Origin: Nitratireductor thuwali
GTDB lineage: Bacteria; Pseudomonadota; Alphaproteobacteria; Rhizobiales; Rhizobiaceae
Reading direction: 5' to 3'
NCBI RefSeq assembly: GCF_036621415.1
Contig: NZ_CP030941.1
Location: forward strand, 2,168,001 to 2,232,000
DNA: 64,000 nt
Position 1 is the stretch's first letter. Each line of letters opens with the position of its first letter. The notes beneath the pieces are model-generated. The model did not search any database. It was not told the DNA's origin and saw only the letters and a program-made list of their open reading frames with translations. Both the position numbers and the translations under genes were made by a program. This document shows, one piece after another, positions 2,526-53,294 of this stretch.

Positions 2526-2762
2526 TCAGAAGGCCTTGAATGTCAGCGTCGTGAGCGAACGGACGATGCCGGGAACATTGGCGACATTGTCGTTGATGAA
2601 CTTCCCGACGTCGACGCCGTCTTCGATGTAGACCTTCAGAAGGAGATCAAATTCGCCGCTGGTCGAATAGAGCTCGGAGGCAATCTCCCGCTCATAGAGC
2701 ATGTCGGCGACTTCATAGGTCTTGCCGGGCTGGCAGCGCAATTGAACGAATACGGGTCTCAT
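2526..2762 (-). CDS. stand-alone Lrp/AsnC-type RAM (ligand-binding) domain protein
   Basis: A 78-residue protein that contains only the C-terminal alpha/beta RAM domain of Lrp/AsnC regulators (FVQLRCQPGK ... GEFDLLLKVY ... IVRSLTTLTF), with no helix-turn-helix. Such stand-alone domains oligomerise and bind small ligands, often amino acids. It lies 37 bases downstream of the formamidase-like hydrolase on the same strand and is probably co-transcribed with it. A role as ligand sensor or modulator for the catabolic island is inference. Confidence 0.75.
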   Translation of the reverse strand: MRPVFVQLRCQPGKTYEVADMLYEREIASELYSTSGEFDLLLKVYIEDGVDVGKFINDNVANVPGIVRSLTTLTFKAF

Positions 2763-2799
2763 CTCTTCTTTCCGGAATTGTCTCGCCGAGGCTCCGCCC

Positions 2800-3639
2800 T
2801 CAGCTTCGGTCTGTCAACAGGGCGTCAAGCATTGGATGATGGGGCGACTTTAGGCCATCGATAACGTCGAAATGGTGACGGTCCGGCTCCTCGACCGCCA
2901 CGGTGCGCGCGCCGAGGCCCGTCCAGACATTGGCGAGCAACGCGTTCTGGCGGACGAATTCCGCGCGCTCGGCGGCTCCAACCCAGCAGATGAGCCTTGT
3001 ACCGGCGCGGGGAGCGAGAAGCGCCGGGCTCTCGACCGCTGCCTCGGCCTCGTCCAGAAGCAGCTGCCCGTTCATCCCCGTGCGCATGATCGGGCGCAGG
3101 TCGTGGACGCCGGAAATCGAAAGAACTGTCTTTATGCGCTCGCCGACATTTTCGGCCAGCGGCGTCGTCTCCGTTACCATGCGGGTGGCCAGATGCCCGC
3201 CCGCCGAATGCCCGGAAAGCCATATGGGGCCGTCGATCCGATCTGCTGCAGCCTCCACTGCGCGCGCGATTTCCTCCCCGATGCCGGCGATGCGGATCTG
3301 CGGGCATAGCGTGTAGGAAGGCATGGCGACCGCCATGCCCCGCGCCAGCGCGCCTTCGGACAGGTGCGACCAGAAGCTCTTGTCGAGCTTCGTCCAGAAA
3401 CCGCCATGGATGAAGATGAACAGACCGCGCGGCGCCCGTTCCGGCAGGAACAGATCGAACCTGTTGCGCGGCCCCTCGCCATAGGCGATGTCCAGCTCGG
3501 CACGGCCCGCCGCCAGCATCGCCACGCGAAAGGGCACAGCCGCCTCGGACCAGGCCTGCGGCCAGCGATCGCCGCCGGGAATATTGGGCCCGTTGGCATA
3601 GGCGTCGTCCCAATCTGTGATGTATCTTTCAAACGCCAT
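2800..3639 (-). CDS. alpha/beta hydrolase, arylformamidase (kynurenine formamidase)-like
   Basis: A 279-residue alpha/beta hydrolase. It has the HGGFW motif (about residue 97), which resembles the HGGxW of eukaryotic-type arylformamidases, and the nucleophile motif GHSAGG. A late Asp and DRHHFDVIDG supply the likely acid and His. The start at 3639 has AGGAGGGG just upstream. It is transcribed away from the anthraniloyl-CoA monooxygenase gene across a 155-base promoter region. A fitting role would be to deformylate N-formylkynurenine or N-formylanthranilate and so supply anthranilate. A carboxylesterase is the alternative. Confidence 0.7.
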   Translation of the reverse strand: MAFERYITDWDDAYANGPNIPGGDRWPQAWSEAAVPFRVAMLAAGRAELDIAYGEGPRNRFDLFLPERAPRGLFIFIHGGFWTKLDKSFWSHLSEGALARGMAVAMPSYTLCPQIRIAGIGEEIARAVEAAADRIDGPIWLSGHSAGGHLATRMVTETTPLAENVGERIKTVLSISGVHDLRPIMRTGMNGQLLLDEAEAAVESPALLAPRAGTRLICWVGAAERAEFVRQNALLANVWTGLGARTVAVEEPDRHHFDVIDGLKSPHHPMLDALLTDRS

Positions 3640-3733
3640 CTTCCCCTCCTGTGGCTGCATAGCGCGCGGTCCCGCCGCTGTCACGCCCGTGGAAACCACG
3701 ATGCAGCGTTCGGCGGATTGCTTCAACGTTAAA

Positions 3734-3749
3734 ATTTCATACTTGAAAT
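3734..3749. promoter_or_regulatory. candidate operator, ATTTCA-N4-TGAAAT dyad
   Basis: A perfect 6+6 inverted repeat (ATTTCA TACT TGAAAT) in an AT-rich stretch between the divergent hydrolase and monooxygenase genes, 46 bases upstream of the latter's start. Its size and symmetry fit a MarR-family operator, and a marR-type gene lies in the operon it would control. Binding is inferred. Confidence 0.5.
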
Positions 3750-3794
3750 ATATTCCGGGCGGTGCGATGCTTTTTCTGAAGAGAGGAGAAGGCG

Positions 3795-6086
3795 ATGAAG
3801 ATAGCTGTCCTTGGCGGCGGGCCTGCCGGCCTCTACTTCGCAATCTCGATGAAGCTGCGTAACGCCGATCACCAAGTGACGGTGTTCGAGCGCAACAGGC
3901 CGGACGACACTTTCGGCTGGGGCGTTGTCCTTTCCGACGAAACGCTGGACAACCTGGCCGAAAACGACCCGGTGAGCGCCGCCAGCATTCGCGAGCATTT
4001 CGCCTATTGGGACGACATCGCCGTCATCCACAAGGGGACGCGCACGGTTTCGACTGGCCATGGCTTCTGCGGCATCGGCCGCATGCGGCTGCTTCTCCTT
4101 CTGCAGGAACGTGCTCGCGCGCTCGGCGTCGACCTACGCTTCAGTTCGGAAGTCGACGATCCGCGCCCGTTCATGGCCGAATACGACATGGTGCTGGCCG
4201 CCGACGGGCTGAACTCGAAGTCGCGCGCGGCGTTCCCGGAGGTGTTCAAGCCGGATATCGACGTGCGCAAGTGCAAGTTCGTCTGGCTCGGCACCCATCA
4301 GAAATTCGACGACGCCTTCACCTTCATCTTCGAAAAGACCCCGCATGGCTGGGTATGGGCGCATGCCTACCAGTTCGACGCTGATACGGCGACCTTCATC
4401 GTCGAGTGCTCGCAGCAGACCTATGACAGGTTCGGCTTTGCCGACATGACGAAGGAAGAGTCCATCGCCACCTGCGAGACGATCTTCAAGGATCATCTGG
4501 GCGGCCACAGGCTGATGTCGAACGCCAGCCACATTCGCGGCTCGGCGTGGATCAGCTTTCCGCGCGTATTGTGCGAGCGCTGGTCGCACGAGAACTTGGC
4601 GTTAATGGGCGATGCCGCGGCCAGCGCGCATTTTTCCATAGGGTCCGGCACCAAGCTGGCGCTGGAAAGCGCCATCGCGCTGGCTGACTACCTGCATTCC
4701 GAACCCACGCTGGACGGGGCCTTCGCCAAATATGAGGATGCACGGCGGCTGGAGGTTCTGCGGTTGCAATCGGCCGCGCGCAATTCGCTCGAATGGTTCG
4801 AGGAGGTGGAGCGTTACCTCGATCTCGATCCGGTGCAGTTCAACTATTCGCTTCTGACCCGCTCCCAGCGCATCAGCCACGAAAACCTGCGCCTGCGCGA
4901 TCCCGAATGGCTTGCCGGGGCGGAAGGGTGGTTCCAGCGGCAGGCGGGCGCGGGAAGCAATGTCAGCCGCCCGCCCATGTTCGCTCCGTACCAGTTGCGC
5001 GGGCTGCGCCTGAAGAACCGCGTCGTCGTCTCGCCCATGGCGCAGTACAAGGCGGTCGATGGCTGCCCCACCGACTGGCATTTCGTGCATTATTGCGAGC
5101 GGGCCAAGGGCGGGGCCGGCCTCGTCCATATCGAGATGACCTGCGTTTCGCCGGAAGGCCGCATCACGCCGGGGTGTCCTGGCTTCTACAAGCCGGAACA
5201 CGAGGCCGCGTGGAAGCGCATCGTCGATTTCGTGCATGCCGAGACCGAGGCCAAAATCTGCGCCCAGATCGGCCATTCCGGTCCGAAGGGGTCCACCCAA
5301 CTCGGCTGGGAGGAGATGGATGCGCCGCTTCCCGACGGAAACTGGCCGCTTATGGCTGCATCGCCGGTGCCTTGGTCGGACCGCAACCAGGTACCGAGGG
5401 AAATGGACCGCGCCGACATGGATATGGTGCGCGATCAGTTCGTTTCGTCGGCAAGGATGGCCGAGCGCTGCGGCTTCGACATGCTGGAGCTGCACTTCGC
5501 CCACGGCTATCTGCTTTCCTCCTTCATCTCGCCCCTGACCAACAGGCGCACGGACGAATATGGCGGCAACCTGCATAACCGCATGCGCTATCCGCTGGAA
5601 GTCTTCCACGCGGTGCGTGCCGTATGGCCGGACGACAAGCCGATCTCGGTCCGCATTTCGGCCAATGACTGGGTTGGCGACGACGGCATAACGCCTGCCG
5701 ACGCCGTCGAGATCGCGCGGATGCTGCGGACCGCCGGCGTCGACATCTGCGACGTTTCGGCGGGGCAGACCTCGAAGCTTGCAAGGCCCGTCTACGGGCG
5801 CATGTTCCAGACCCCCTTCTCGGACCGCATCCGCAACGAGACCGGCATGGCCACCATGGCGGTGGGCAATATCTACGAGCCCGACCACGTGAACTCTATC
5901 CTGATGGCGGGCCGCGCCGACCTCGTCTGCCTCGCCCGCCCGCATCTGGCCGATCCCTACTGGACGCTCCACGCGGCGGCCCGGCTCTGCGACAGGGGCG
6001 TCGCATGGCCCGATCCATACCTGCCGGGCCGCGATCAGCTTTACCGGCTCGCCGAAAGAGCCGAGCAGATGACGGGGAAGGTATGA
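3795..6086 (+). CDS. anthraniloyl-CoA monooxygenase/reductase (bifunctional; also named salicylyl-CoA 5-hydroxylase/oxidoreductase)
   Basis: A 763-residue two-domain flavoprotein. Residues 1 to about 380 are an FAD aromatic hydroxylase with the N-terminal Rossmann motif GGGPAGLY and the later [11 protein letters not shown] segment. Residues about 395-763 are an old-yellow-enzyme (FMN) domain, starting near [10 protein letters not shown], with [11 protein letters not shown] and the C-terminal FMN-binding [10 protein letters not shown]. This order and length match 2-aminobenzoyl-CoA monooxygenase/reductase, which hydroxylates anthraniloyl-CoA at C5 and then reduces the ring. The start has GAGAGGAGAAGG upstream. 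It is the first gene of the long catabolic operon and its stop overlaps the next start (ATGA). Salicylyl-CoA is the main alternative substrate. Confidence 0.88.
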
Positions 6087-6844
6087 TGGCAGGATCGCGT
6101 CACGCATTGGTGACGGGCGGCGGCTCCGGGGTGGGCAAGGCCGTCGCCGTTGCGCTGGCGGGAGCCGGCATCGCGGTGACCGTTTGCGGACGGCGGCTGG
6201 AGCCCCTCGAGGCGGTCGCGACGGAGCATGAAAACGTCCACGCCCTCGTTGCGGACGTAACGGATGAGGCGTCCATCGCAGCGCTGTATGCAAAGGCGGA
6301 GGCCGCTCGTGGGCCCTTCGACATCGTCGTCGCCAATGCCGGCATCGCCTCCAGCGCGCCGGCGCACAAGATATCGCTCGACGAGTGGAACCGCATCGTC
6401 AACGTCAACCTCACGGGCGCTTTCTTGACCGTAAAGCCGGCCTTGGCCCGGATGAGGGAGCAGGGAACCGGCAGGATCGTCTTCCTCGCCTCGACCGCCG
6501 GCATAAAGGGTTATGCCTATGTGGCGCCCTATGTGGCCTCCAAGCATGGGGTTGTCGGCCTGATGCGGGCGCTCGCCAGCGAGCTTGCCGCGACGGGCGT
6601 CACGGTAAATGCGGTCTGCCCCGGCTTCGTGGAGACGGAAATGCTCACCGAAACCGTCGCGCGCATCACCGAGAAAACCGGGCGCAGCCGCGAGGAAGCG
6701 CGCGCCGGCCTGGCCGCCGTCAACCCGCAGGGCAGGTTCATTCAGCCGGACGAAGTGGCGTCCGCGGTCCAGTGGCTCGTCAGCGACGGCGCGCGCTCCG
6801 TGAGCGGGCAGACGATTTCGGTTTGCGGAGGAGAAACATGGTGA
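6083..6844 (+). CDS. SDR family NAD(P)-dependent oxidoreductase
   Basis: A 253-residue classical short-chain dehydrogenase: TGGGSGVG cofactor motif at the N-terminus, NAG motif (VANAGIASS), and an intact triad with Ser in LAST followed 13 residues later by Tyr in YVASK. The start overlaps the monooxygenase stop by four bases; a second ATG follows directly. In the pathway it probably oxidises or reduces a 3-hydroxyacyl-CoA or alicyclic ketone intermediate formed after ring reduction. Substrate is inferred from the operon only. Confidence 0.85.
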
Positions 6845-7308
6845 GCGCTCCACTGACGGCCGAAAGGCCCGGCACGGACAGCAAGGAAAGGCTGCGTCTG
6901 TGGATCAGGCTGCTCAGGGCATCGCGCTCGATCGAAAGCGAACTGCGTGAGAGGCTGAAGCGGGATTTCGGCTCCACTCTGCCGCGCTTCGACGTGATGG
7001 CGGCGCTCTACCGGGAGACCGGCGGGATGGCGATGACCGATCTCTCGCGCTTCCTGCTGGTGTCCAACGGCAACGTGACCGGCATCGTGGACCGCCTGGT
7101 GGCCGACGGCTATGTGGCCCGCAGCAAGCGCGAAGGCGACCGGCGAACCAGCATCGTGCGGCTGACGGCGGCCGGGCGCGAAACCTTCGCGCGGATGGCC
7201 GAGGCCCACGAGGTGTGGGTGGACGAGTTGCTGGCCGGAGTGGGCGAGACGGAGGCGCGCGAGCTCTCCTCCAAGCTCAAGGCGTTCAGAAGCGATTGGG
7301 AGGGCTGA
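6838..7308 (+). CDS. MarR family transcriptional regulator
   Basis: A 156-residue winged-helix regulator with the MarR core ([10 protein letters not shown] ... [15 protein letters not shown] ... [17 protein letters not shown]). The start ATG lies within the end of the SDR gene (7-base overlap), and the crotonase gene starts 2 bases after its stop. Many MarR proteins inside aryl-CoA operons are repressors released by the aryl-CoA thioester (BadR, CouR and similar). By analogy this one likely represses the divergent promoter region at 3640-3794. Confidence 0.88.
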
Positions 7309-7310
7309 AA

Positions 7311-8123
7311 ATGGCCGCAATGGCAGGGCTGAAGCCCGAACATTTCCTGTGGAGGATGGAGGGCAGCGTGGCCCTTGTCCAACTCGACCGGCCCGACAGG
7401 AAGAACCCCCTTACCTTCGATTCCTATGCCGAGTTGCGCGACATGTTTCGCGCGCTGCCCTATGCCGACGATGTCGACGCAGTGGTTTTCCTGCCCAATG
7501 GCGGCAATTTCTGCTCGGGCGGCGATGTGCACGACATCATCGGCTCCCTCGTCGGCAGGGATATGAAGGGCCTGCTCGCCTTCACCCGCATGACCGGCGA
7601 TCTGGTCAAGGCGATGCTGAATTGCCAGAAGCCGATCGTTGCAGCGGTGGACGGCGTGGCCGTGGGGGCCGGCGCGATCATCGCCATGGCCTCCGACATT
7701 CGCCTGGCGACGCCGGAGGCGAAGACGGCCTTCCTTTTCACCCGCGTGGGTCTTGCTGGCTGTGACATGGGTGCCTGCGCGATGCTGCCGCGCATTATCG
7801 GCCAGGGCCGCGCGGCGGAACTGCTCTATACCGGCCGGTCCATGAGCGGCGAGGAGGGCGAGCGCTGGGGCTTCTACAATCGGCTGGTCGAGACGGGCCA
7901 GTTGGAAGCCGAGGCGCTGGCCTTGGCCGCGCGCATTGCCTCCGGCCCTACCTTCGCCCACGGCATCACCAAAACCCAGCTTAACCAGGAATGGTCGATG
8001 GGGCTGGAGCAGGCCATCGAGGCCGAGGCGCAGGCGCAGGCGATCTGCATGCAGACCCGCGACTTCAAGCGCGCTTACCGCGCTTTCGTCGAAAAGAAGA
8101 CACCGGTTTTCGAGGGGGATTGA
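7311..8123 (+). CDS. crotonase-superfamily enzyme, probably a non-hydratase (ring-opening hydrolase type)
   Basis: A 270-residue crotonase fold protein with the oxyanion-hole motif [10 protein letters not shown]. The two glutamates of true enoyl-CoA hydratases are not conserved: the GGCEL position reads GAGAI, and the PEI position reads TRV in [14 protein letters not shown] nearby Asp in GCDMG could act instead, as acidic residues do in crotonase-type hydrolases and dehalogenases. The protein sits between MarR and acyl-CoA dehydrogenase with 2-base and 1-base contacts. Hydrolytic ring opening of an alicyclic 3-oxoacyl-CoA is a reasonable but unproven role. Confidence 0.8.
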
Positions 8124-9319
8124 TGCCTGACCGCTCCTTCCTCGACTGGCCCTTCCTCGAACAGCGCCACCGCGACTGGGCGGAGCGGCTGGAGGCTTGG
8201 TGCGCCGCTAATTTGCCGGTCGACCACGGCGATGTCGATGCCGCCTGCCGCGATCTCGTGGCCAAGCTCGGCAAGGCCGGCATCCTGGAACCGACGGCGC
8301 TCGACACGACAGCTCCCGGACCGCTTGACGTGCGCACCTTGTGCATCGCGCGCGAGACGCTGGCGCGGCATGACGGGTTGGCCGACTTCGCCTTTGCGAT
8401 GCAGGGGCTAGGCACCGGCGCCATCAGCCTGTTCGGCAGCGACCAACAGCGAAATTGGCTGCGGAAGACCCGCAAGGGCGAGGCGATTTCCGCCTTCGCG
8501 CTTTCCGAGCCGCGGTCCGGGTCCGATGTCGCCAATATGGATATGACCGCCAGGCGGGATGGAGGGGATTTCATTCTGTCGGGCGAGAAAACCTGGATCT
8601 CCAATGGCGGCATCGCCGATATCTACACCGTCATCGCGCGCACCGGCGAAGCGCCGGGCGCCAAGGGTCTTTCCGCCTTCCTGGTGCCGGCCGATACGCC
8701 AGGGCTGAAGATCGCCGAGCGCATCGAGGTCGTCGCGCCGCACCCGCTCGCGAGCCTATCGTTCCAGGATGTGCGCGTCCCGGCCTCCGCCATGATCGGC
8801 AAGCCGGGCGACGGCTTCAGGATCGCCATGTCGGTGCTCGACGTCTTCCGTTCGACGGTCGGCGCGGCGGCGCTCGGTTTCGCCCGCCGCGCGCTGGACG
8901 AATCGATCGCGCGGGCATCGAGCCGCCAACTCTTCGGCGCGCCGCTGTTCGATCTGCAGATGGTGCAGGGGCACCTGGCGGATATGGCTCTGGACGTCGA
9001 TGCGGCGGCACTGCTCGTCTACCGCGCCGCATGGGCAAAGGATATGGGCGCGCCGCGCGTGACACGCGAAGCGGCCATGGCCAAGCTCTACGCTACCGAT
9101 CGCGCCCAGGAGGTCATCGACAAGGCCGTGCAGATCCACGGCGGCGACGGCGTTCGGCGCGGACACATCGTCGAGAGCCTTTACCGGGAGATAAGGGCGC
9201 TGCGCATCTATGAAGGGGCGTCGGACGTGCAGAAGGTCGTGATAGCACGGCAGCTAGAGCGCGATCCCGAAAAGCGGGCATCGGTTTTCGGAAAAGATCG
9301 TGCTCCAACAAGAAGATAA
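8123..9319 (+). CDS. acyl-CoA dehydrogenase
   Basis: A 398-residue flavin acyl-CoA dehydrogenase. Visible motifs are [15 protein letters not shown] (FAD/substrate binding), [19 protein letters not shown], and YEGASDVQ, whose Glu matches the catalytic base of MCAD-type enzymes. It probably desaturates a ring-derived acyl-CoA. The start overlaps the crotonase stop by one base. The last 16 or so residues are unusual: the DNA from 9257 to 9305 is a copy of a rhizobial palindromic repeat, so the normal C-terminus (IARQLER) continues into a repeat-encoded tail. Confidence 0.87.
9257..9305. repeat. rhizobial palindromic repeat (family A) inside a coding region
   Basis: Inverted ends GAGCGCGATC and GATCGTGCTC (one mismatch) with an inner CCGAAAA / TTTTCGG pair. 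The second copy is at 30476-30524. This copy lies within the final codons of the acyl-CoA dehydrogenase gene and is read through in frame. Confidence 0.75.
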
Positions 9320-9335
9320 ATGAGGGTGAGCTCCA

Positions 9336-10955
9336 ATGCTGGGACCATCGGCGCATGTCGATACATTCACGCGGGACAACCTCCCGCCGCCAGATCAATG
9401 GCCGGACTTCCTTCTGGAGGGGTTCGATTATCCAGAATATCTGAACGCCGGCGTCGAACTTACCGATTGCATGGTGGAGAAGGGATTCGGCGATCATGTC
9501 GCGCTGATCGGCAATGGCCGGCAGCGCACCTATAAGGAGTTGGCCGACTGGACCAGCCGGCTCGCCCATGCCCTGGTTGAAGATTACGGCGTTAAGCCGG
9601 GCCATCGGATCCTGATCCGCTCGGCCAACAATCCCGCCATGGTCGCCTGCTGGTTGGCCGCCACCAAGGCTGGGGCGGTGGTCGTCAACACGATGCCGAT
9701 GCTGCGCGCCGGCGAGCTCGCCAAGATCGTCGACAAGGCCGAGGTCGCGCTGGCGCTCTGCGACACGCGCATCAAGGATGAGCTCGTCGCTTGCGCCAAG
9801 GACAGCAGATACTTGAAGCAGGTGGTAGGCTTCGACGGCACGGCCAATTTCGACGCCGAGCTCGACCGCATCGCGCTCAACAAGCCGGTAAGGTTCGATG
9901 CGGTGAAGACGGGGCGCGACGATGTTGCGCTGCTGGGCTTCACCTCGGGCACCACCGGCATTCCCAAGGCGACCATGCATTTCCACCGCGACCTGCTGAT
10001 CATCGCCGACGGCTATGCGAAGGAAGTGCTCCAGGTCACGCCGGACGACGTTTTCGTCGGCTCGCCGCCGCTGGCCTTCACCTTCGGGCTCGGCGGGCTG
10101 GCGATTTTTCCATTGCGCTTCGGCGCCGCCGCCACGCTCCTGGAAAGCGCGACGCCGCCGAACATGATCGAGATCATCGAAAAATACCGCGCGACGGTCA
10201 GCTTCACCGCCCCCACCGCCTACCGCGCCATGCTGGCGGCCATGGATGAAGGGGCCGACCTTTCCTCGCTGCGCGCGGCGGTCTCCGCGGGCGAGACGTT
10301 ACCGGGCCCGGTCTGCGAGGAATGGCTGCGCAAGACGGGCAAGCCCATTCTCGACGGCATCGGCGCGACCGAGATGCTGCATATTTTCATCTCGAACCGC
10401 TTCGACGACATGCGCCCCGCCTGCACCGGAAGGCCGGTGACGGGGTATGAGGCGCGCGTCGTCGACGAGGACATGAACGAGGTGCCGCGCGGCGAGATCG
10501 GCCGGCTGGCCGTACGCGGCCCCACCGGCTGCCGCTATCTCGCCGACGACCGGCAGAAGGACTATGTGCGCGACGGCTGGAATTTGACGGGCGATTCCTT
10601 CATTGAGGATGAGGAAGGCCGCTTCCACTTCGCCGCGCGCTCCGACGACATGATCGTTTCCGCCGGCTACAATATCGCCGGACCCGAAGTCGAGGCGGCG
10701 CTGCTGGCTCACGCGGATGTGGCCGAATGCGCGGTTATCGGCGCCGAGGACGCCGAGCGCGGGCAGATCGTCCAGGCCCACGTGGTCGTTGCTTCCGGTG
10801 TCGCCTGCGATCAGGCGACCGTCAAGCGCCTGCAAGACCATGTGAAGGCGGTCATTGCGCCCTACAAATATCCACGCTCGATCGTTTTCGTGGAAAGCTT
10901 GCCCAAGACGGCGACTGGAAAGATACAGCGCTTCCGGTTGCGGGAGGGGCAGTGA
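9336..10955 (+). CDS. 2-aminobenzoate-CoA ligase / benzoate-CoA ligase family enzyme
   Basis: A 539-residue acyl-adenylate-forming enzyme. Signature motifs are FTSGTTGIPKATMH (phosphate loop), GIGATEMLHIFIS, DGWNLTGDSF and the C-terminal catalytic Lys in LPKTATGKIQR. The overall pattern matches benzoate- and 2-aminobenzoate-CoA ligases, which activate the aromatic acid with ATP and CoA in the cytosol. It supplies the substrate for the monooxygenase encoded upstream and follows the dehydrogenase by 16 bases. Whether anthranilate, salicylate or benzoate is preferred cannot be settled by motif reading. Confidence 0.85.
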   Translation: MLGPSAHVDTFTRDNLPPPDQWPDFLLEGFDYPEYLNAGVELTDCMVEKGFGDHVALIGNGRQRTYKELADWTSRLAHALVEDYGVKPGHRILIRSANNPAMVACWLAATKAGAVVVNTMPMLRAGELAKIVDKAEVALALCDTRIKDELVACAKDSRYLKQVVGFDGTANFDAELDRIALNKPVRFDAVKTGRDDVALLGFTSGTTGIPKATMHFHRDLLIIADGYAKEVLQVTPDDVFVGSPPLAFTFGLGGLAIFPLRFGAAATLLESATPPNMIEIIEKYRATVSFTAPTAYRAMLAAMDEGADLSSLRAAVSAGETLPGPVCEEWLRKTGKPILDGIGATEMLHIFISNRFDDMRPACTGRPVTGYEARVVDEDMNEVPRGEIGRLAVRGPTGCRYLADDRQKDYVRDGWNLTGDSFIEDEEGRFHFAARSDDMIVSAGYNIAGPEVEAALLAHADVAECAVIGAEDAERGQIVQAHVVVASGVACDQATVKRLQDHVKAVIAPYKYPRSIVFVESLPKTATGKIQRFRLREGQ

Positions 10956-11115
10956 AAGGACACGGTGCCGCCGTTCATGACCGCTTGTCTTTGTTATTTT
11001 CTACGGCGCGCCGATGTGGAACTATCCTGCCCGGTTCGGGTGGGATGGCAATGAGAGGCCAAGGAGCGCATTCAGCGCCCGCAGCCACCAGACGGGAACA
11101 AAGGGAGTTGAACCA

Positions 11116-12255
11116 ATGAAGAAAATGATTGCAGCCGGGCTGTTTGCCCTTTCCATGAGCGTAGCGGGTTCGGCCATGGCCGAGCCGGTCAAGGTGGGCA
11201 TGATCACCACGCTTTCGGGCGGCGGAGCGGGGCTGGGCGTCGACGTGCGCGACGGCTTCATGCTGGCGGTGAAGCAGGCCGGCAACGACGAGCTCGAAGT
11301 CGTCGTCGAGGACGATGCGCAGAAGCCGGAACTGGCCGTCCAGATCGCCGACAAGATGCTGCAGAGCGACAAGGTGGACATCCTGACCGGCATCATCTGG
11401 TCGAACCTGGCGATGGCGGTCGTGCCGAATGCGGTCAACCAGGGCACTTTTTATATATCGCCCAATGCCGGTCCGTCGCAGCTTGCCGGCAAGATGTGCA
11501 ATGAAAACTATTTCAATGTCGCCTGGCAGAACGACAATCTGCACGAGGCCGCCGGCGCCTACGCCAATTCGGCCGGCCACGAGAACGTCTTCATCATGGC
11601 GCCCAACTACCCGGCGGGCACCGATGCGCTGACCGGCTTCAAGCGCATGTATGAGGGCGAACTGGCGGGCGAGGTTTACACCCAGCTCGGCCAGACCGAC
11701 TACGCCGGCGAAATCGCTCAGATCCGCGATTCAGGCGCGGACGCGGTCTTCGTCTTCCTGCCGGGCGGAATGGGCATCGCCTTCACCAAGCAGTACGCCC
11801 AGGCGGGCGTCGACGCCCCGCTCATCGGCCCGGCCTTCTCCTTCGGCCAGGACATACTGGGCGCGGTGGGCGATGCGGCATTGGGCGTCAAGAACACCTC
11901 GCAATGGTCCAAGGATATAGACAACGAGACCAACAAGGCCTTCGTCGAAAGCTTCCAGGCCGAGTATGGCCGCCTGCCTTCGCTCTATGCCAGCCAGGGC
12001 TTCGACACGGCTAACCTCATCCTGTCCGCCATGGAAAAGGCCGACGTGAAGGACAAGGATGCCTTCCGCGCCGCCCTCAAGGAAGCCGATTTCAAGTCGA
12101 CCCGCGGCGATTTCGAATTCGGCAACAACAATCACCCGATCCAGGACATCTACGTCCGTGAGGTGGTCAAGGAAGGCGACGTGCTGACCAACAAGATCGT
12201 CGGCGTTGCGCTGGAGGATCACCAGGACGCCTATGCCGCCGAGTGCGGGATGTAG
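11116..12255 (+). CDS. ABC transporter substrate-binding protein, branched-chain amino acid/aromatic acid type
   Basis: A 379-residue periplasmic protein of the Leu/Ile/Val-binding family (Peripla_BP_6). The signal peptide is MKKMIAAGLFALSMSV to about AMA-EP. Then follow VGMITTLSGGGAGLG and repeated Rossmann-like lobes. The start at 11116 has GGGAG 8 bases upstream; upstream in-frame codons lack a signal peptide. It lies 160 bases after the aryl-CoA ligase and is followed by two permeases and two ATPases, so it should be the receptor for the aromatic substrate of the cluster (inference). Confidence 0.88.
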   Translation: MKKMIAAGLFALSMSVAGSAMAEPVKVGMITTLSGGGAGLGVDVRDGFMLAVKQAGNDELEVVVEDDAQKPELAVQIADKMLQSDKVDILTGIIWSNLAMAVVPNAVNQGTFYISPNAGPSQLAGKMCNENYFNVAWQNDNLHEAAGAYANSAGHENVFIMAPNYPAGTDALTGFKRMYEGELAGEVYTQLGQTDYAGEIAQIRDSGADAVFVFLPGGMGIAFTKQYAQAGVDAPLIGPAFSFGQDILGAVGDAALGVKNTSQWSKDIDNETNKAFVESFQAEYGRLPSLYASQGFDTANLILSAMEKADVKDKDAFRAALKEADFKSTRGDFEFGNNNHPIQDIYVREVVKEGDVLTNKIVGVALEDHQDAYAAECGM

Positions 12256-12261
12256 TCCACG

Positions 12262-12384
12262 CCGGCTCATCCTCCTTCTCCGCTTGAGGGGAGAGGTGCC
12301 GCAGGCGGGCGGGGGCAGCGCCGACTTCTTGCTGCCCCTCGCCTTCACCCTCTCCCGGCAAAGGGGTGAGGGATCCTTCATCGC
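12262..12384. repeat. intergenic mosaic repeat with stem-loops (family C)
   Basis: The region between the binding-protein and permease genes is made of GC-rich inverted blocks, including a perfect GGGGCAGC (12312-12319) / GCTGCCCC (12331-12338) stem and CCTTCTCC / GGGGAGAGG blocks. Related palindromes occur at 27934-27971 and 35776-35821. Stem-loops here could also protect the binding-protein mRNA end and set its higher expression. Confidence 0.6.
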
Positions 12385-12405
12385 ACCCAATTCCGGAACC
12401 AACCC

Positions 12406-13326
12406 GTGTCCTTCGCCCTCTTCATAGAGCAAATCCTCAACGGCCTTCAGTTCGGCGTCATGCTGTTCCTGATGGCGGCCGGGCTGACGCTGATCTTCGG
12501 CGTGATGGGCCTTATCAACCTCGCCCATGGCTCGCTCTTCATGGTCGGCGCGTTCGCATGCGCCGCGGTCGCCGCGGCGACGGGCTCGTTCTGGCTGGGG
12601 CTTGCGGCGAGCCTGGCGGCGGCCGCTGCCGCCGGGGCGGTCATCGAAATCCTGGTTATCCGCCGCCTTTATGACCGCGATCATCTCGATCAGGTGCTTG
12701 CCACCTTTGCGCTGATCCTCATCTTTTCGGAGGGAACGCGCTGGGTTTTCGGCTCGTTTCCGCTCTATCTCGACATTCCGCCGCTGCTTTCGGGCGCGGT
12801 AAGGCTGCCGGGCGGCGCAAACTACCCGCTCTACCGGCTCGCCGTCATCGGCGTGGGCGTGGCGGTGGCTGTCGGGCTCTATCTGCTGATCTCGCGCACC
12901 CGGCTCGGCATGCGCATCCGCGCCGGCGAATCCGACCGCGAGATGATCGCCGCCCTCGGCGTCGACATTCGCACGCTCTATACGCTCGTCTTCGCGCTGG
13001 GTGCGGCCCTTGCCGGCCTTGCCGGTGCGCTGGTCGGTGCGCTCCAGTCGGTGCAGGTCGGCATGGGTGAACCGGTTCTGATCCTCGCCTTCGTCGTCAT
13101 TGTCATCGGCGGCATCGGCTCCATCAAGGGCGCCTTGATCGGCTCGCTCCTGGTCGGGGTGACGGAGACGCTCGGCCGCTTCCTGCTGCCGCGCTTCTTC
13201 GCCTTCTTCATCGAGCCATCGGACGCCGCCGCAATAGGCGCGGCCATCGCCTCAATGCTGATTTATATCGTGATGGCTCTGGTGCTCGCGGTGCGCCCGC
13301 AGGGCCTGTTTGCGGCAAACGGATGA
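12406..13326 (+). CDS. branched-chain-type ABC transporter permease, LivH family
   Basis: A 306-residue integral membrane protein, about eight hydrophobic segments, with the LivH start (FIEQILNGLQFGVMLFLMAAGLTLIFG) and GLINLAHGS. It forms the inner-membrane channel together with the LivM-type protein whose gene overlaps its stop (ATGA at 13323). The EAA-type region near residue 180 (AGESDREMIAALG) contacts the ATPase. It is part of the importer attached to the aromatic island. Confidence 0.9.
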   Translation: MSFALFIEQILNGLQFGVMLFLMAAGLTLIFGVMGLINLAHGSLFMVGAFACAAVAAATGSFWLGLAASLAAAAAAGAVIEILVIRRLYDRDHLDQVLATFALILIFSEGTRWVFGSFPLYLDIPPLLSGAVRLPGGANYPLYRLAVIGVGVAVAVGLYLLISRTRLGMRIRAGESDREMIAALGVDIRTLYTLVFALGAALAGLAGALVGALQSVQVGMGEPVLILAFVVIVIGGIGSIKGALIGSLLVGVTETLGRFLLPRFFAFFIEPSDAAAIGAAIASMLIYIVMALVLAVRPQGLFAANG

Positions 13327-14306
13327 GGCGCGGGATGACGCGAGAAGCCATCGTCACCGCCGTCCTGATCGCCGCGCTCCTGGCGGCACCCTTTGCCGCC
13401 CAGGCCATCGATGAACCCTTCTACGTTACCCTGGCCACCCGCATCGCCATACTGGCGCTGGCCGCGACGGGGCTGAACATCGCGCTGGGGCTGGGCGGGC
13501 TGGTCTCCTTCGGGCACGCCGCCTTCTTCGGCATTGGCGGTTATGCGGCGGGAATCCTGGCCACCCACGCCTTCAATGGCGAGCCATTGTTCCTGGGCCT
13601 GCCGGGCACCAACCAGATGATCGTCATCTGGCTGGTGGGAGCGCTGGCGGCTGGCGCCGCCGCCTTCCTGATCGGCCTCGTCTCGCTGAGGACGTCCGGC
13701 GTCTATTTCATCATGATCACGCTCGCTTTCGCCCAGATGATCTACTATTTCGCCATTTCCTGGCCGGCCTATGGCGGCGAGGACGGGCTTTCGATCTACG
13801 TGCGCAACACCTTTCCCGGAGCCAACACGCTGGCGCCGATGCCGTTTTTCCTGATTTGCTTCGGCGTTCTATGCGTGGGCCTGGTGGCCTTCTGGTGCCT
13901 CATGAACTCACGTTTCGGCGCCGCTCTCCAGGCCGGTCGCCAGAACGAGGTCCGGCTAGCTGCCGTGGGTATCGCACCATTCACGATCCGCCTCGCAGCC
14001 TTCGTCGTTTCGGCGACGCTGACCGCCGTGGCCGGCGCCCTCTTCGCCGACCTCAACCGCTTCGTCAGCCCCTCCATGCTTTCCTGGCACATGTCGGGCG
14101 AGCTCATCGTCCTCATCATCCTCGGCGGTGTCGGGCGGCTGGGCGGCCCGCTGGCGGGGGCGGCGCTGTTCGTGCTGTTCGAATTCGCCCTCGGCGGCAT
14201 CACCGAGCGCTGGCAGTTGTTTCTTGGGCTCGTGCTCCTGGGCGTGGTGCTTTTCGCACGCGGCGGCGTGATGGGCTTTCTGGCGGGGAGGGCGCGGCAT
14301 GGCTGA
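13323..14306 (+). CDS. branched-chain-type ABC transporter permease, LivM family
   Basis: A 327-residue multi-spanning permease with the LivM signature ALAATGLNIALGLGGLVSFGHAAFFG and the cytoplasmic loop GRQNEVRLAAVG. The start is translationally coupled to the LivH stop. The gene ends 8 bases inside the following ATPase gene. It forms a heterodimeric channel with LivH. Confidence 0.9.
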   Translation: MRRGMTREAIVTAVLIAALLAAPFAAQAIDEPFYVTLATRIAILALAATGLNIALGLGGLVSFGHAAFFGIGGYAAGILATHAFNGEPLFLGLPGTNQMIVIWLVGALAAGAAAFLIGLVSLRTSGVYFIMITLAFAQMIYYFAISWPAYGGEDGLSIYVRNTFPGANTLAPMPFFLICFGVLCVGLVAFWCLMNSRFGAALQAGRQNEVRLAAVGIAPFTIRLAAFVVSATLTAVAGALFADLNRFVSPSMLSWHMSGELIVLIILGGVGRLGGPLAGAALFVLFEFALGGITERWQLFLGLVLLGVVLFARGGVMGFLAGRARHG

Positions 14307-15048
14307 GCCGGTGCTGGAAATTCGCGGCCTGAGAAAAAGCTTCGGCGCCCTGAAGGCCACCGACGATGTGAACCTCGACCTGAAGCCGGGTGAAATCCAT
14401 GCGCTGATCGGCCCTAACGGCGCGGGAAAATCCACCGTAATCCACCAGATCGCGGGAACGCTGACGCCGGACGGCGGGCAAGTGCGCTTTCTGGGCCGCG
14501 ATGTTCTGCGGCTGGGCGTCGCCGAGAGGGCGCGCCTCGGGCTCGGCCGCACGTTCCAGGTCTCCTCTCTCGCGCCGGAATTTTCCGCGCTGCGCAATGT
14601 CATGCTGGCGGTGCAGGCGCGGCAGGGGTCGAGCTTCCGCTTCTTTCGTCCGGTGATGAGCGACCGCACGCTGACCGCACCGGCGATGGAAGCGCTGGAG
14701 CGGGTCGGCCTGCAGAACCGCGCCGCCACTCCGGCGGCCGAGCTATCCCATGGGGAACGGCGGCAGCTCGAAATCGCGGTCGCCCTGGCGCTGGGTGCGC
14801 GGGCCTTCCTCCTGGACGAGCCGATGGCAGGCATGGGGCCGGAGGGATCGCGTGCGCTGACCGCCTTCCTGCAGGATCTGCGGCACGAGGCACCCATCCT
14901 GCTGGTGGAACATGATATGGAAGCGGTGTTCGCCCTGGCCGACCGGATCTCGGTCCTCGTCTACGGCCGCGTCATCGCCTCTGGCACGGTCGATGAAATC
15001 CGCTCCGACCCGGCGGTGCGCGAAGCCTATCTGGGGGACGCGGCATGA
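14299..15048 (+). CDS. branched-chain-type ABC transporter ATP-binding protein, LivG family
   Basis: A 249-residue ABC ATPase: Walker A GPNGAGKST, signature LSHGERRQLE (His replaces the usual Gly), Walker B FLLDEPMAGMGP, and the switch His in LLVEHDME. The insert before the signature and the C-terminal tail (EIRSDPAVREAYLGD) are LivG-like. It overlaps LivM by 8 bases and LivF by 4, so it is in the same operon and energises import. Confidence 0.9.
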   Translation: MAEPVLEIRGLRKSFGALKATDDVNLDLKPGEIHALIGPNGAGKSTVIHQIAGTLTPDGGQVRFLGRDVLRLGVAERARLGLGRTFQVSSLAPEFSALRNVMLAVQARQGSSFRFFRPVMSDRTLTAPAMEALERVGLQNRAATPAAELSHGERRQLEIAVALALGARAFLLDEPMAGMGPEGSRALTAFLQDLRHEAPILLVEHDMEAVFALADRISVLVYGRVIASGTVDEIRSDPAVREAYLGDAA

Positions 15049-15731
15049 GCCTTCTCGAAGTGCAGGAATTACAGACCTTCTACGGCAAATCGCAAGCGCT
15101 CTTCGACGTCCGGCTGACCGTGGAAGAGGGCGAGGTGGCAGCGCTGATGGGCCGCAATGGCATGGGCAAGACCACCACCATAAGGTCGATTTGCAACCTC
15201 ACGCCGGCGCGCTCAGGCAAGATCGTGTTCGCGGGGCGTCCAACGGCGGGACTGCCCCCTCATCGGGTGGCGCGGCTGGGAATCGGGCTGGTGCCGGAAG
15301 GCCGCCGCTGCTTCCCCAATCTGACGGTTGAAGAGAACCTGCTGGCCGCCGCGCGGCCCGGCAAGTGGGACCTGACGCAAATCCACCGGCTGTTCCCCCG
15401 GCTCGCCGAGCGGCGGAGCCAGAGCGCCCGCACGCTTTCGGGCGGCGAGCAGCAGATGCTCGCCATCGGGCGGGCGCTGATGACCAATCCCAGACTGGTC
15501 ATTCTGGACGAGGCGACCGAAGGTCTGGCGCCGGTGATTCGCAAGGATATCTGGGCCGCCATCCGCACCTTGAAAGGCGAAGGCCAGTCGATCCTGATCG
15601 TTGACAAGACCCTGTCGGAGCTGCTGCCGGTCGCCGACCGCTGCACCATCCTGGAGCGCGGGCAGACCGTGTGGCACGGCAGCCCCGAAACGATGACACC
15701 CGACATCCAGGAGCGGTTTCTCGGCGTCTAA
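15045..15731 (+). CDS. branched-chain-type ABC transporter ATP-binding protein, LivF family
   Basis: A 228-residue ABC ATPase with Walker A GRNGMGKTT, signature LSGGEQQMLAIGRAL and Walker B LVILDEATEGLAP. The switch position reads VDKTL where most LivF proteins have a conserved EQ/EH, a small oddity worth noting. It is coupled to livG by ATGA and completes the five-gene importer. Confidence 0.9.
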   Translation: MSLLEVQELQTFYGKSQALFDVRLTVEEGEVAALMGRNGMGKTTTIRSICNLTPARSGKIVFAGRPTAGLPPHRVARLGIGLVPEGRRCFPNLTVEENLLAAARPGKWDLTQIHRLFPRLAERRSQSARTLSGGEQQMLAIGRALMTNPRLVILDEATEGLAPVIRKDIWAAIRTLKGEGQSILIVDKTLSELLPVADRCTILERGQTVWHGSPETMTPDIQERFLGV

Positions 15732-15762
15732 ATCCATCAGCGCCAGACAACAGGAAAAAGGC

Positions 15763-16185
15763 ATGAAGATGAGCGTCAGCGCTTCACCCCACCAGATACT
15801 TCAACCTTCCGGATGGAAGGCCGCCAAGGGCTATTCCAACGGCATCGCCGCCAGCGGCCGTACACTCTATCTGGGCGGGCAGATCGGCTGGACCGCCGAC
15901 CAGACGTTTGAGACGGACGACTTCGTCGGCCAGGTCCGTCAGACGCTGGAGAACGTAGCCGTGCTGCTGCGCGAGGGCGGCGCGGGACCCGAACACGTTG
16001 TCCGGATGACATGGTTCATCACCGACAAGGCCGAATACCTTGCGCGCCTGCGCGAACTGGGCGAGGCCTATCGTGCGGTCATGGGCCGCAATTTCCCGGC
16101 GATGAGCGTGGTGGTGGTCGCCGCCCTTATCGAAGACCGGGCAAAGGTGGAGATCGAGGCGACCGCTGTGGTTCCCGGATCTTGA
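15763..16185 (+). CDS. RidA family (YjgF/YER057c/UK114) protein
   Basis: A 140-residue RidA-fold protein ([16 protein letters not shown] ... LYLGGQIGW ... [26 protein letters not shown]). RidA proteins form trimers and hydrolyse reactive enamines or imines to ketones and ammonia. The conserved Arg of the active RidA class aligns with the R in VVRMTWFI. It lies 31 bases after livF, with AGGAAAAAGG upstream, so it is likely the last gene of the aromatic operon. Release of ammonia from the amino-cyclohexene product of the monooxygenase is an attractive role (inference). Confidence 0.82.
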
Positions 16186-16261
16186 CTGCCTACCGGCTGG
16201 CACTTGTGAAGAGCCGGTCTTCGCCTTTGCAACGGCGCGGCACTTGACGCATATTCCGCCC

Positions 16262-16693
16262 ATGAACGAAACAGCCGGCCCCCAGAAGGACTATGAGCAG
16301 GATCTGCGCCGGGCGGGCGTGCGCATCACGCGCCCCCGGCAGGTGATCCTGCGCATTCTGTCCAAGACCGAAGACCATCCCGACGCCATGGAGATATTCC
16401 AGCGCGCAAGCGAAGTGGACCCCAGCATCTCGCTGTCCACGGTCTACCGGACAATGAAGCTGCTTGAGGAAAAGGGTGCCATACACCGCCATGCCTTCGA
16501 AGGCGGGCGGGCCCGGTTCGAGCAGGCCGGCGGCGAACACCACGATCACCTCATCGATATCGATACGGGTGACGTGATCGAGTTCCATTCCACGAGGATA
16601 GAGGCGCTGCAGGACGAGATCGCCAAATCGCTCGGCTATGACATCGTGCATCACCGGCTCGAGCTCTACGGCAAGAAGAGACGCAAGCGCTGA
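16262..16693 (+). CDS. Fur family transcriptional regulator (Fur/Mur type)
   Basis: A 143-residue metalloregulator with the winged-helix sequence [26 protein letters not shown] as recognition helix, and metal-site residues in [11 protein letters not shown] and HHRLELYG. The HHDHLIDxxTG form lacks the Cys-x-x-Cys zinc site of E. coli Fur and resembles the rhizobial Mur (manganese-responsive) branch. A TTG at 16244 would add six residues; the ATG at 16262 is preferred. It controls metal uptake genes elsewhere (inference). Neighbours do not suggest a local target. Confidence 0.85.
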
Positions 16694-16721: not shown

Positions 16722-18140
16722 ATGAGCAAAGCGGATATCGGCCTGATCGGCCTTGGCGTGATGGGTGCGAACCTTGCGCTGAACATTGCCGAGAAGGGAT
16801 TTCGCGTCGCCGTCCATAACCGTACGGCAGCCCGCATCGGCGCTTTTTTGGGCGAAGCAGGCGCGCTTGGCGAGAACATCATCGGCTGCCAGACGGCGGA
16901 AGCGCTGGTCGAGGCGATCGAGCGTCCCCGCCCCATCATCCTCATGGTCCAGGCGGGCGAGGCTGTCGATGCTCAGATCGAGGCGCTGAAGCCGCTGCTC
17001 GATCCGGAAGACATCATCATCGACGCCGGCAATGCCAATTTCCGTGACACGCAGCGGCGGATGCGGGCACTGGATGGGCATGGCCCGGCCTTTGTCGGCA
17101 TGGGCGTATCGGGCGGTGAGGAAGGTGCGCGCCACGGGCCGTCTATCATGGTCGGCGGACCGCGGGCCGCCTATGAGCGGATCCAGCCGGTGTTGAACGC
17201 CATCGCCGCCCGCTATGAGGGAGAAGCATGCCAGGCCTGGCTTGGGCCGGAGGGAGCAGGCCACTTTGTCAAAACCATCCACAACGGCATCGAATATGCC
17301 GACATGCAGATGATCGCCGAGATATACGGCTTCCTGCGCGACAGGCACGGCCTGCCGGCGCAGGAGATTGCGGCGATCTTCGCGCGCTGGAACGAAGGGC
17401 GGCTCAATTCCTATCTGATCGAGATCACGGCGGCGGTTCTTTCCGCCGAGGATCCGCATGGCGGGCAGCCTCTCGTGGATGTGATCGTGGACCGGGCAGG
17501 ACAGAAGGGGACCGGGCGCTGGTCCGCCATCGAGGCGCAGACGCTGGGCATCCCCGCCACCGCCATAGAGGCGGCTGTCGCAGCGCGCGGCCTCTCCTCC
17601 ATGAAGGGGGAACGCGAGGCCGCCGAGAAGCTGTTTCCGCGGGAAAATGCCCGGCAAGTGGGGCCGGTCACGCCCGAACTTCTCCACACGCTGGAGCAGG
17701 CGCTGTTGGCTGGAAAGATCGTCGCCTACGCCCAGGGCTTCGCCGTCATGGCCGCCGCCTCGAGGGAATATGGCTGGAGCCTGCCGCTCGACACCGTGGC
17801 GCGCATATGGCGCGCCGGTTGCATCATCAGGTCGCAGTTTCTGGGCGAGATCGCGCAGGCCTTCGAGGCAGCGCCTGAGGTCGATAACCTGCTTGCAACG
17901 CCGGCCTTCGCATCGCTGATGCGGGAAGCGAACGGTCATCTGCGGCAGGCGGTGGCGCTCGGCATTGGTGACGGTATCGGCATGCCGGCTTTGGGCGCTG
18001 CGCTGGCCCATTTCGATATCCTGCGCCGCGGGCGCGGCACGGCCAATCTTATCCAGGCGCAGCGTGACTATTTCGGCGCGCACGGCTTCGACCGCACCGA
18101 TGGGCTGGACATCCATCACGGCGATTGGAGACAGGTATAG
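16722..18140 (+). CDS. gnd: 6-phosphogluconate dehydrogenase, decarboxylating
   Basis: A 472-residue enzyme with GLGVMGANLALNIAEKG (cofactor fold), the HNRT motif consistent with NADP use, the catalytic GPEGAGHFVKTIHNGIEYADMQ block, and the end segment TANLIQAQRDYFGAHGFDR. Length is normal for the family. It oxidises 6-phosphogluconate to ribulose 5-phosphate and CO2 in the pentose phosphate pathway. A ribulose-phosphate 3-epimerase gene that uses the same product lies about 4 kb away. It is 28 bases downstream of the fur-type gene. Confidence 0.95.
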   Translation: MSKADIGLIGLGVMGANLALNIAEKGFRVAVHNRTAARIGAFLGEAGALGENIIGCQTAEALVEAIERPRPIILMVQAGEAVDAQIEALKPLLDPEDIIIDAGNANFRDTQRRMRALDGHGPAFVGMGVSGGEEGARHGPSIMVGGPRAAYERIQPVLNAIAARYEGEACQAWLGPEGAGHFVKTIHNGIEYADMQMIAEIYGFLRDRHGLPAQEIAAIFARWNEGRLNSYLIEITAAVLSAEDPHGGQPLVDVIVDRAGQKGTGRWSAIEAQTLGIPATAIEAAVAARGLSSMKGEREAAEKLFPRENARQVGPVTPELLHTLEQALLAGKIVAYAQGFAVMAAASREYGWSLPLDTVARIWRAGCIIRSQFLGEIAQAFEAAPEVDNLLATPAFASLMREANGHLRQAVALGIGDGIGMPALGAALAHFDILRRGRGTANLIQAQRDYFGAHGFDRTDGLDIHHGDWRQV

Positions 18141-53131: not shown

Positions 53132-53204
53132 GCCGGCGATCCAGACATGCCGCTTCGCATGAGGGGCGCTGCCGATCCTGCGAAGCTGAAAGAGCGTGGC
53201 AGGA

Positions 53205-53294
53205 TGGCGGAGAGAGAGGGATTCGAACCCTCGATACGGTTTCCCGTATACACGCGTTCCAGGCGTGCGCCTTCAACCACTCGGCCACCTCTCC
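53205..53294 (-). tRNA. tRNA-Ser (anticodon GGA)
   Basis: 90 bases including CCA, with the long variable arm of class II tRNAs. Acceptor GGAGAGG / TCTCTCC, anticodon stem CACGC/GCGTG with loop CTGGAAC giving GGA, T-loop TTCGAAT. No integrase or att-like duplication is seen beside it. Confidence 0.94.

Follow-up and report, generated by a model that had tools for sequence, protein, structure and literature searches.

The 64,000-nucleotide stretch of the Nitratireductor thuwali genome analysed here, termed the window (positions 2168001-2232000 on contig 1 of a 4.75-Mb genome in three contigs), contains a plus-strand block of 12 genes that runs from a fused monooxygenase/reductase of the 2-aminobenzoyl-coenzyme A (CoA) type, starting at window position 3795, to a small Rid-family protein ending at position 16185. 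The block probably serves the aerobic import and degradation of anthranilate as CoA thioesters, with the Rid protein, which lacks the arginine of the known Rid deaminases, deaminating the monooxygenase product as a regular step of the route. The Arg-less Rid subfamily to which this protein belongs is tightly tied to the monooxygenase across genomes, and literature searches suggest that the tie is new; no published link of aminobenzoyl-CoA to RidA or to a deaminase was found in the open-licence full-text literature, and an earlier statement may exist elsewhere.

The Rid protein (positions 15763-16185, plus strand) belongs to the PF01042 family (E = 7e-22), and alignment to Escherichia coli RidA places a methionine at the Arg105 position with Tyr17 and Glu120 kept. 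It thus lacks the active-site arginine of an archetypal RidA and corresponds to the Arg-less Rid4-Rid7 subfamilies, with Glu120 retained. In the Rid deaminases studied, Arg105 binds the substrate carboxylate and is required (PMC4433059, PMC8113886, PMC7221256). The subfamilies without it have been called mysterious, with Trp at the position in Rid4 and Rid7 and variable residues in Rid5 and Rid6, and about 10% of RidA proteins carry Ser there (PMC4433059). Tyr17, Trp35, Met105 and Glu120 are invariant in 132 of 132 unique homologues scoring at least 150 bits (150 rows, aligned to E. coli RidA), a cut that selects the Met-bearing subfamily because the profile was built from its members. Twelve rows below 150 bits were excluded, comprising four Ser-bearing paralogues (family f3), four partial ends, two proteins with Met (L251 and L257) and two background Rids. 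Among 30 readable proteins of the 34 that score at least 90 bits in the Actinomycetota sample described below, position 105 is occupied by Met in 20, Ile in four, Thr in three, Val in two and Leu in one, with no Arg; position 17 is Tyr in eight and Phe in 22, and Glu120 is present in all 30 and therefore in all 162 Rids read (132 + 30). Genomes of family f3 (L253-L256) hold a second Rid paralogue away from the operon (133-138 bits), with Phe17, Ser105 and Glu120.

The distribution of this Rid protein across genomes closely follows that of the monooxygenase. The home-phylum sample comprised 398 genomes, with the monooxygenase called at E <= 1e-150 and Rid at a threshold set beforehand (E <= 1e-25), and only the best few candidates in each genome were scored (the best ten for Rid in this sample). 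Within these limits Rid is found in 69 of 71 monooxygenase-positive genomes and in none of the 327 negative genomes. The two genes lie no more than 15 kb apart in 61 of the 69 genomes; three pairs are farther apart within a contig and five are split between contigs, and these eight pairs indicate that the match is due to more than linkage. A second sample of 246 genomes, taken from the phylum of one relative (L227, in a metagenome-assembled genome (MAG) titled Actinomycetota), gave 38 matches to the monooxygenase family at E <= 1e-120, 15 of them passing the curated cut-off; five of the 38 were dropped, four covering only the old yellow enzyme (OYE) half and one being a fragment at a contig edge. 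Rid, called here at 90 bits or more, a threshold chosen only once the scores had shown a gap from 91.4 down to 75.0 bits, occurs in 33 of 33 monooxygenase-positive genomes and in 1 of 213 others; in 23 of the 33 the two genes are no more than 15 kb from each other, and in the other ten they are on different contigs. The Fisher tests of this analysis ignore the kinship of the genomes. A preliminary description of the stretch had listed RidA as an accessory of the island; its presence stands, and the co-occurrence makes it a core part.

Deamination of 2-amino-5-oxocyclohexenecarbonyl-CoA is possibly the reaction of the Rid protein and offers the best reading of its place in the route. The Liv-type importer would take up anthranilate, and the ligase, judged by homology, would form 2-aminobenzoyl-CoA. 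The fused flavoenzyme would then hydroxylate C5 and reduce the ring, as is known for its family, to give 2-amino-5-oxocyclohex-1-ene-1-carbonyl-CoA. The step newly proposed is that the Arg-less Rid would hydrolyse this beta-enamino thioester to 2,5-dioxocyclohexanecarbonyl-CoA and ammonia. RutC, the Rid protein of the rut operon, deaminates 3-aminoacrylate (PMC8113886), and the monooxygenase product, an enamine beta to a thioester, is the CoA counterpart of that compound, which points to hydrolysis by Rid. RutC is a Rid-family deaminase that acts as a catabolic step on a beta-enamino acyl compound, as the window protein would be; RutC needs Arg104 and a substrate with a free carboxylate (PMC8113886), whereas the window protein has Met and would use a CoA thioester. 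Since the RidA arginine holds the substrate carboxylate and a thioester offers none at that place, a hydrophobic residue would replace the Arg while the Glu stays. Anthranilate-grown Arthrobacter sp. Rue61a contains a C7H8O4-CoA that, according to the authors, might be cyclohexanedione-carboxyl-CoA (PMC3534580); this composition is that of the proposed deaminated dione and supports the deamination step. Deamination of enamine intermediates has been proposed or demonstrated for other Rid/YjgF members, among them the 2-aminomuconate deaminases of aromatic catabolism (PMC6449761, PMC4433059) and an induced Rid6 of a nicotine cluster, which is predicted to remove an enamine or imine and whose subfamily varies at the Arg position (PMC7688666). 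These differ in acting in other pathways on substrates that are not CoA thioesters, and the available text of those reports gives neither a genome-wide co-occurrence nor a link to 2-aminobenzoyl-CoA. RidA has also been predicted within a BoxR regulon (PMC6449761).

Copies of the monooxygenase that stand beside a gentisate dioxygenase provide a natural control. The loci compared are 80 unnamed (from 78 genomes) and 80 named, 159 of the 160 being distinct (L181 duplicates L084), with neighbouring genes found by six-frame searches. A gentisate 1,2-dioxygenase homologue is located beside the monooxygenase in only three, L063, L079 and L098, at 87-1007 bp from it and with scores of 306-322 bits that fall short of the curated 442-bit cut-off, and neither Rid nor crotonase is present in these three loci. 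With two of these dioxygenases as queries, the 160 loci yielded no further gene of this kind at E <= 1e-20. The two monooxygenase-positive genomes that have neither Rid nor crotonase are those of L079 (G296) and L098 (G349), and in G225 the L063 monooxygenase is a second copy apart from the genome's own Rid-bearing cluster. The three copies fall at two places within Rid-bearing groups of a tree built from 81 monooxygenases (support of 92 for the pairing of L098), and a topology uniting them in one clade is rejected with a p-AU of 0.0002 in a 30-row subset. The sole Rid-bearing genome with a dioxygenase homologue near the monooxygenase, among 58 checked (57 of the 71 and G401), is G339, where the distance is 9.3 kb. 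In L063 and L079 the Rid-less monooxygenase and the dioxygenase homologue are accompanied by indolepyruvate-oxidoreductase-like genes, forming a separate, unnamed aryl-CoA route to which L063 adds a fumarylacetoacetate-hydrolase-like gene and L079 a thioesterase.

Several observations weigh against deamination by Rid as a regular step. Deaminase activity has so far gone undetected in Arg-less Rid subfamilies, and the R104A variant of RutC is dead (PMC8113886, PMC4433059). Acid destabilises the enamine product, whose hydrolytic deamination was seen in earlier work (PMC3534580), so that a catalyst may not be needed. The co-occurrence of Rid is about equally strict with the crotonase, whose family (NF006107) occurs in 67 of the 71 monooxygenase-positive and none of the 327 negative home-phylum genomes, and the short-chain dehydrogenase/reductase (SDR) and the acyl-CoA dehydrogenase recur too, so the tie of Rid could be to another step. 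The one exception among the 213 Actinomycetota-sample genomes, G633, has Rid without the monooxygenase. The natural control is made up of three copies only, of which L098 is a long branch. Seven more copies (L106, L108, L109, L135, L136, L205 and L217), each flanked by 4 kb or more on either side, have no Rid, crotonase or gentisate dioxygenase in their stretch, the other named loci ending too near the monooxygenase to judge. The genomes of L106, L108 and L109 have Rid and crotonase elsewhere; for L135, L136 and L205 no Rid is found in the stretch, to which the search for Rid was confined. The Thermoflexus MAG of L217 is a plain counter-case, in which the best Rid of the genome scores 50 bits and bears the Arg. 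Two further points concern the substrate: Cupriavidus metallidurans CH34, with annotated abm genes, grew on salicylate and not on anthranilate (PMC8879955), and the NCBIfam name of the monooxygenase family NF006101 is salicylyl-CoA 5-hydroxylase.

The lack of detected activity in Arg-less Rids (PMC8113886, PMC4433059) and the acid lability of the enamine (PMC3534580) would also suit the same anthranilate-CoA operon with Rid as a damage-control or chaperone-like factor that limits side reactions, the enamine hydrolysing spontaneously or its amine being handled by the crotonase or SDR. A general protector is expected in monooxygenase-negative genomes too, whereas none of the 327 has this Rid at E <= 1e-25 among the ten best candidates per genome, and the four invariant residues (132 of 132) suggest one specific ligand, which leaves this explanation unlikely.

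The NCBIfam name in turn prompted salicylate as the main substrate, converted by a salicylyl-CoA 5-hydroxylase to gentisyl-CoA and then to gentisate. The monooxygenase is homologous to the family so named, and L063, L079 and L098 fit such a route, L079 and L098 also carrying a YbgC-like thioesterase under its curated cut-off. These gentisate-linked copies differ from the window operon, which has the Rid, crotonase, SDR and dehydrogenase genes not found beside them; the genome of the window has no match to gentisate dioxygenase (TIGR02272) at E <= 1e-50, and genes for tryptophan dioxygenase and kynureninase recur beside the Rid-bearing type. Salicylate as the main substrate was therefore rejected, and salicylate or another 2-substituted benzoate is here very improbable. 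The substrate is likely anthranilate, because the ligase is nearest to an anthranilate-CoA ligase, genes of a tryptophan arm occur in 33 of 159 loci and no gentisate dioxygenase is found in the genome at that threshold.

A wider proposal is made only tentatively, with prospects that fall just short of even. The Arg-less Rid subfamily would be a beta-enaminoacyl-CoA deaminase that supplies the missing, obligate nitrogen-release step after 2-aminobenzoyl-CoA monooxygenase/reductase, with loss of the Arg as an adaptation to the CoA thioester, and the gentisate-linked monooxygenase lineages, presumably switched to non-amino substrates, would have lost Rid. If this is true, the Arg rule for predicting Rid function marks the type of substrate (carboxylate or thioester) and not deaminase activity, and the annotation of many catabolic operons would change. 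One small protein and one known reaction would now suffice to test the role of Rid proteins without the 'essential' Arg. The fate of the 2-aminobenzoyl-CoA monooxygenase/reductase product, for which the literature examined holds only gene-based proposals since 2001, is now testable as well.

The aryl-CoA (anthranilate-CoA) ligase (positions 9336-10955, plus strand) has the anthranilate-CoA ligase 4wv3 as its nearest structure in the PDB (E = 4.9e-82), followed by benzoate-CoA ligases, and its TIGR02262 score of 370.2 bits lies just below the cut-off of 375.25. The Liv-type substrate-binding protein (11116-12255, plus strand; PF13458) is nearest to 4evq/4evr and then 4ey3, which we take to be aromatic-acid binding proteins of Rhodopseudomonas palustris. 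Tryptophan dioxygenase, kynureninase or both are present in 33 of the 159 distinct related loci: the 80 unnamed loci include 14 with tryptophan dioxygenase, 18 with kynureninase and 21 with either or both, the 80 named loci 12, nine and 12, respectively. Kynureninase matches below 38% were excluded from these counts and one locus belongs to both sets. One member of each family was verified, the tryptophan dioxygenase of L074 by PF03301 and the kynureninase of L126 by TIGR01814 (297.9 bits, cut-off 246.4). L126 is the closest relative of the window locus, with a monooxygenase 96% identical, and carries kynureninase and tryptophan dioxygenase between the ligase and the binding protein, where the window has a gap of 160 bp (10956-11115). 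In the genome of the window, the genome search found no tryptophan dioxygenase and no kynureninase over the cut-off (best match 54 bits against 246.4). The tryptophan arm is missing in this genome, by loss or because it was never gained, and the formamidase-like gene therefore has no visible upstream partner.

That gene encodes an alpha/beta hydrolase with an HGGFW motif (positions 2800-3639, minus strand; PF20434/PF07859), a probable N-formylkynurenine formamidase/arylformamidase and perhaps a relic of the tryptophan arm. Its nearest PDB structures are 2pbl, then the lipase 9n8r and then the kynurenine formamidase 4e11 (E = 2e-15), and NCBIfam assigns it to the hormone-sensitive lipase family (362.9 bits over a cut-off of 320). 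The link to formamidase and kynurenine drawn in the preliminary description has support from gene context, tryptophan dioxygenase occurring in 11 of 14 distinct loci with the hydrolase against 15 of 145 without it. Together with the adjacent RAM gene, the hydrolase would be a remnant of, or be awaiting, the tryptophan-to-anthranilate arm found within the corresponding operon of the closest relative. The operon might instead serve mainly N-formylanthranilate or another N-acyl aryl amine, deformylated by the hydrolase before the other gene products degrade the anthranilate. Retention of the gene in a genome where the search found neither partner would fit this, as would L124, which has the hydrolase with neither tryptophan dioxygenase nor kynureninase in its 20-kb stretch; the hydrolase may equally be a mere relic, its NCBIfam family is that of hormone-sensitive lipases and most loci share the same core without it (it is found in eight of 80 monooxygenase-bearing stretches, each 14-20 kb long), making such a substrate a doubtful choice over anthranilate itself.

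The locus belongs to an already known type of gene cluster, that of the 2-aminobenzoyl-CoA (abm) pathway. The monooxygenase (positions 3795-6086, plus strand, 763 amino acids) is of the 2-aminobenzoyl-CoA monooxygenase/reductase type, with an FAD monooxygenase domain (PF01494) fused to an OYE reductase domain (PF00724) and an NF006101 score of 1284.7 bits (cut-off 1078), and the ligase counts as a 2-aminobenzoate-CoA ligase by its homology to 4wv3. Three beta-oxidation-type enzymes, a MarR regulator, an ATP-binding cassette (ABC) binding protein and a Rid-type protein, further features of such clusters, are all in the locus. The Azoarcus evansii clusters reported by Schuehle et al. (J. Bacteriol., 2001) reportedly also contain a MarR-like regulator, an ABC substrate-binding protein and a 'putative translation inhibitor', translation inhibitor being a former name of Rid-type proteins. 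The island itself is not new in kind: both the monooxygenase/reductase reaction and a gene cluster that combines the ligase, this enzyme and beta-oxidation functions are in print for A. evansii (PMC4539516, PMC8388817; cited in PMC3534580), and Cupriavidus has annotated abm genes (PMC2842291, PMC8879955). The likeness to A. evansii, drawn by description and not by direct sequence comparison, covers the ligase, the fused enzyme and the beta-oxidation-type enzymes. As far as the descriptions of A. evansii go, the window differs in its integrated five-gene Liv importer, in the divergent formamidase-like hydrolase and RAM protein, in relatives that insert kynureninase and tryptophan dioxygenase, and in a Rid established as Arg-less and tightly tied to the monooxygenase. 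Arthrobacter sp. Rue61a resembles the window in having anthranilate-CoA ligase activity for two genes, an inferred monooxygenase/reductase and metabolite masses that fit the route, and differs in its upstream arm, which is quinaldine; Rid goes unmentioned in the available text of that report (PMC3534580).

The 80 stretches around the monooxygenase in other genomes contain the SDR and MarR genes in 68 each, the crotonase and acyl-CoA dehydrogenase in 66 each, Rid in 58 and the ligase in 52, several stretches stopping short of the usual Rid position. Because these genes recur, the grouping is not due to chance. The gene-order comparison had been set beforehand as a test able to refute the preliminary description, and the surrounding genes, including Rid and those of beta-oxidation type, do travel with the monooxygenase across genomes, in agreement with its aerobic aryl-CoA, probably anthranilate, operon. 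Most of the largest recurrent families from clustering of open reading frames looked like antisense shadows of conserved genes and were rejected; only kynureninase, tryptophan dioxygenase, a FadB-like family and a cyclase-type formamidase-like family were kept. In seven loci of one genus (L120, L122, L123 and L127-L130) the operon has a kynureninase and no ligase within the stretch, and in L127-L130 a FadB-like gene is positioned after Rid.

After deamination, the SDR would reduce the 5-oxo group and the crotonase would cleave C1-C2 of the beta-keto thioester to give 4-hydroxy- or 4-oxopimelyl-CoA, in an order that is conjectural. The acyl-CoA dehydrogenase would then begin beta-oxidation and genes elsewhere would complete it. 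At least 95% of 72 sequences retain Ser137, Tyr150 and Lys154 of the SDR (positions 6083-6844, plus strand), and in the acyl-CoA dehydrogenase (8123-9319, plus strand; PF00441/PF02770) Glu364 of the YEG motif is conserved. The crotonase-superfamily enzyme (7311-8123, plus strand; PRK08258), at 475 bits for NF006107 (cut-off 330), is a candidate C1-C2 ring-cleaving hydrolase. Its closest solved relatives are the 'putative enoyl-CoA hydratase' 3g64 and then 4fzw, a 1,2-epoxyphenylacetyl-CoA isomerase and the closest with a name, and in the alignment an Asp of 4fzw matches the conserved Asp152; the Glu pair of enoyl-CoA hydratases is not seen in the enzyme. Identity with a BadI-type ring hydrolase was considered and could not be demonstrated from these features. 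Neither a thiolase nor a FadB-type 3-hydroxyacyl-CoA dehydrogenase was identified in the 12-gene block. A FadB-like family occurs in 17 of the 80 loci and is absent from the window, which fits beta-oxidation finished by genes elsewhere and, with the tryptophan arm not found, counts against the complete import-to-central-metabolism route that had been claimed.

All genes named in the preliminary description are present at their positions, 12 on the plus strand and two divergent. The MarR-family regulator (6838-7308; PF01047) lies between the SDR and crotonase genes, and the importer continues after the binding protein with LivH-type (12406-13326; PF02653) and LivM-type (13323-14306; PF02653) permeases and LivG-type (14299-15048; PF00005/PF12399) and LivF-type (15045-15731; PF00005) ATPases, all on the plus strand. 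The junctions from monooxygenase to ligase are -4, -7, +2, -1 and +16 nt (overlaps negative, gaps positive), the gaps flanking the binding-protein gene are 160 nt on the ligase side and 150 nt on the LivH side, and the junctions from LivH through LivM, LivG and LivF to Rid are -4, -8, -4 and +31 nt. Since six adjacent gene pairs overlap by 1-8 nt, the block is likely co-transcribed. The second divergent gene (2526-2762, minus strand) encodes a stand-alone RAM (AsnC/Lrp ligand-binding) domain protein of 78 amino acids (PF01037, E = 2.6e-12) with a 96% identical neighbour in L126.

MarR would probably repress from the divergent intergenic region (3640-3794), where the palindrome ATTTCATACTTGAAAT at 3734-3749 is a candidate MarR operator. 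Among 58 loci whose monooxygenase start was recognised by a loose start motif, 27 carry the recurring motif CTTGAAA or its complement in the 200 bp upstream of that gene; random stretches give a mean of 1.4 of 58, with a maximum of 6.

The locus is bordered on the left by a D-lyxose isomerase gene and on the right by a Fur-family regulator gene (16244-16693), on the same strand as the Rid gene and starting 58 bp downstream of its end, followed by 6-phosphogluconate dehydrogenase (16722-18140). Second, distant matches to the monooxygenase family (29-39% identity) are located near the cluster in L196, L209, L226, L174 and L179, and in L196 the match is accompanied by a Liv-type importer and a ligase-like match, possibly a sister pathway. 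Farther along the window, at 53190-53294, ARAGORN calls a tRNA-Arg on the plus strand overlapping a tRNA-Ser on the minus strand, at least one of the two calls likely being false.

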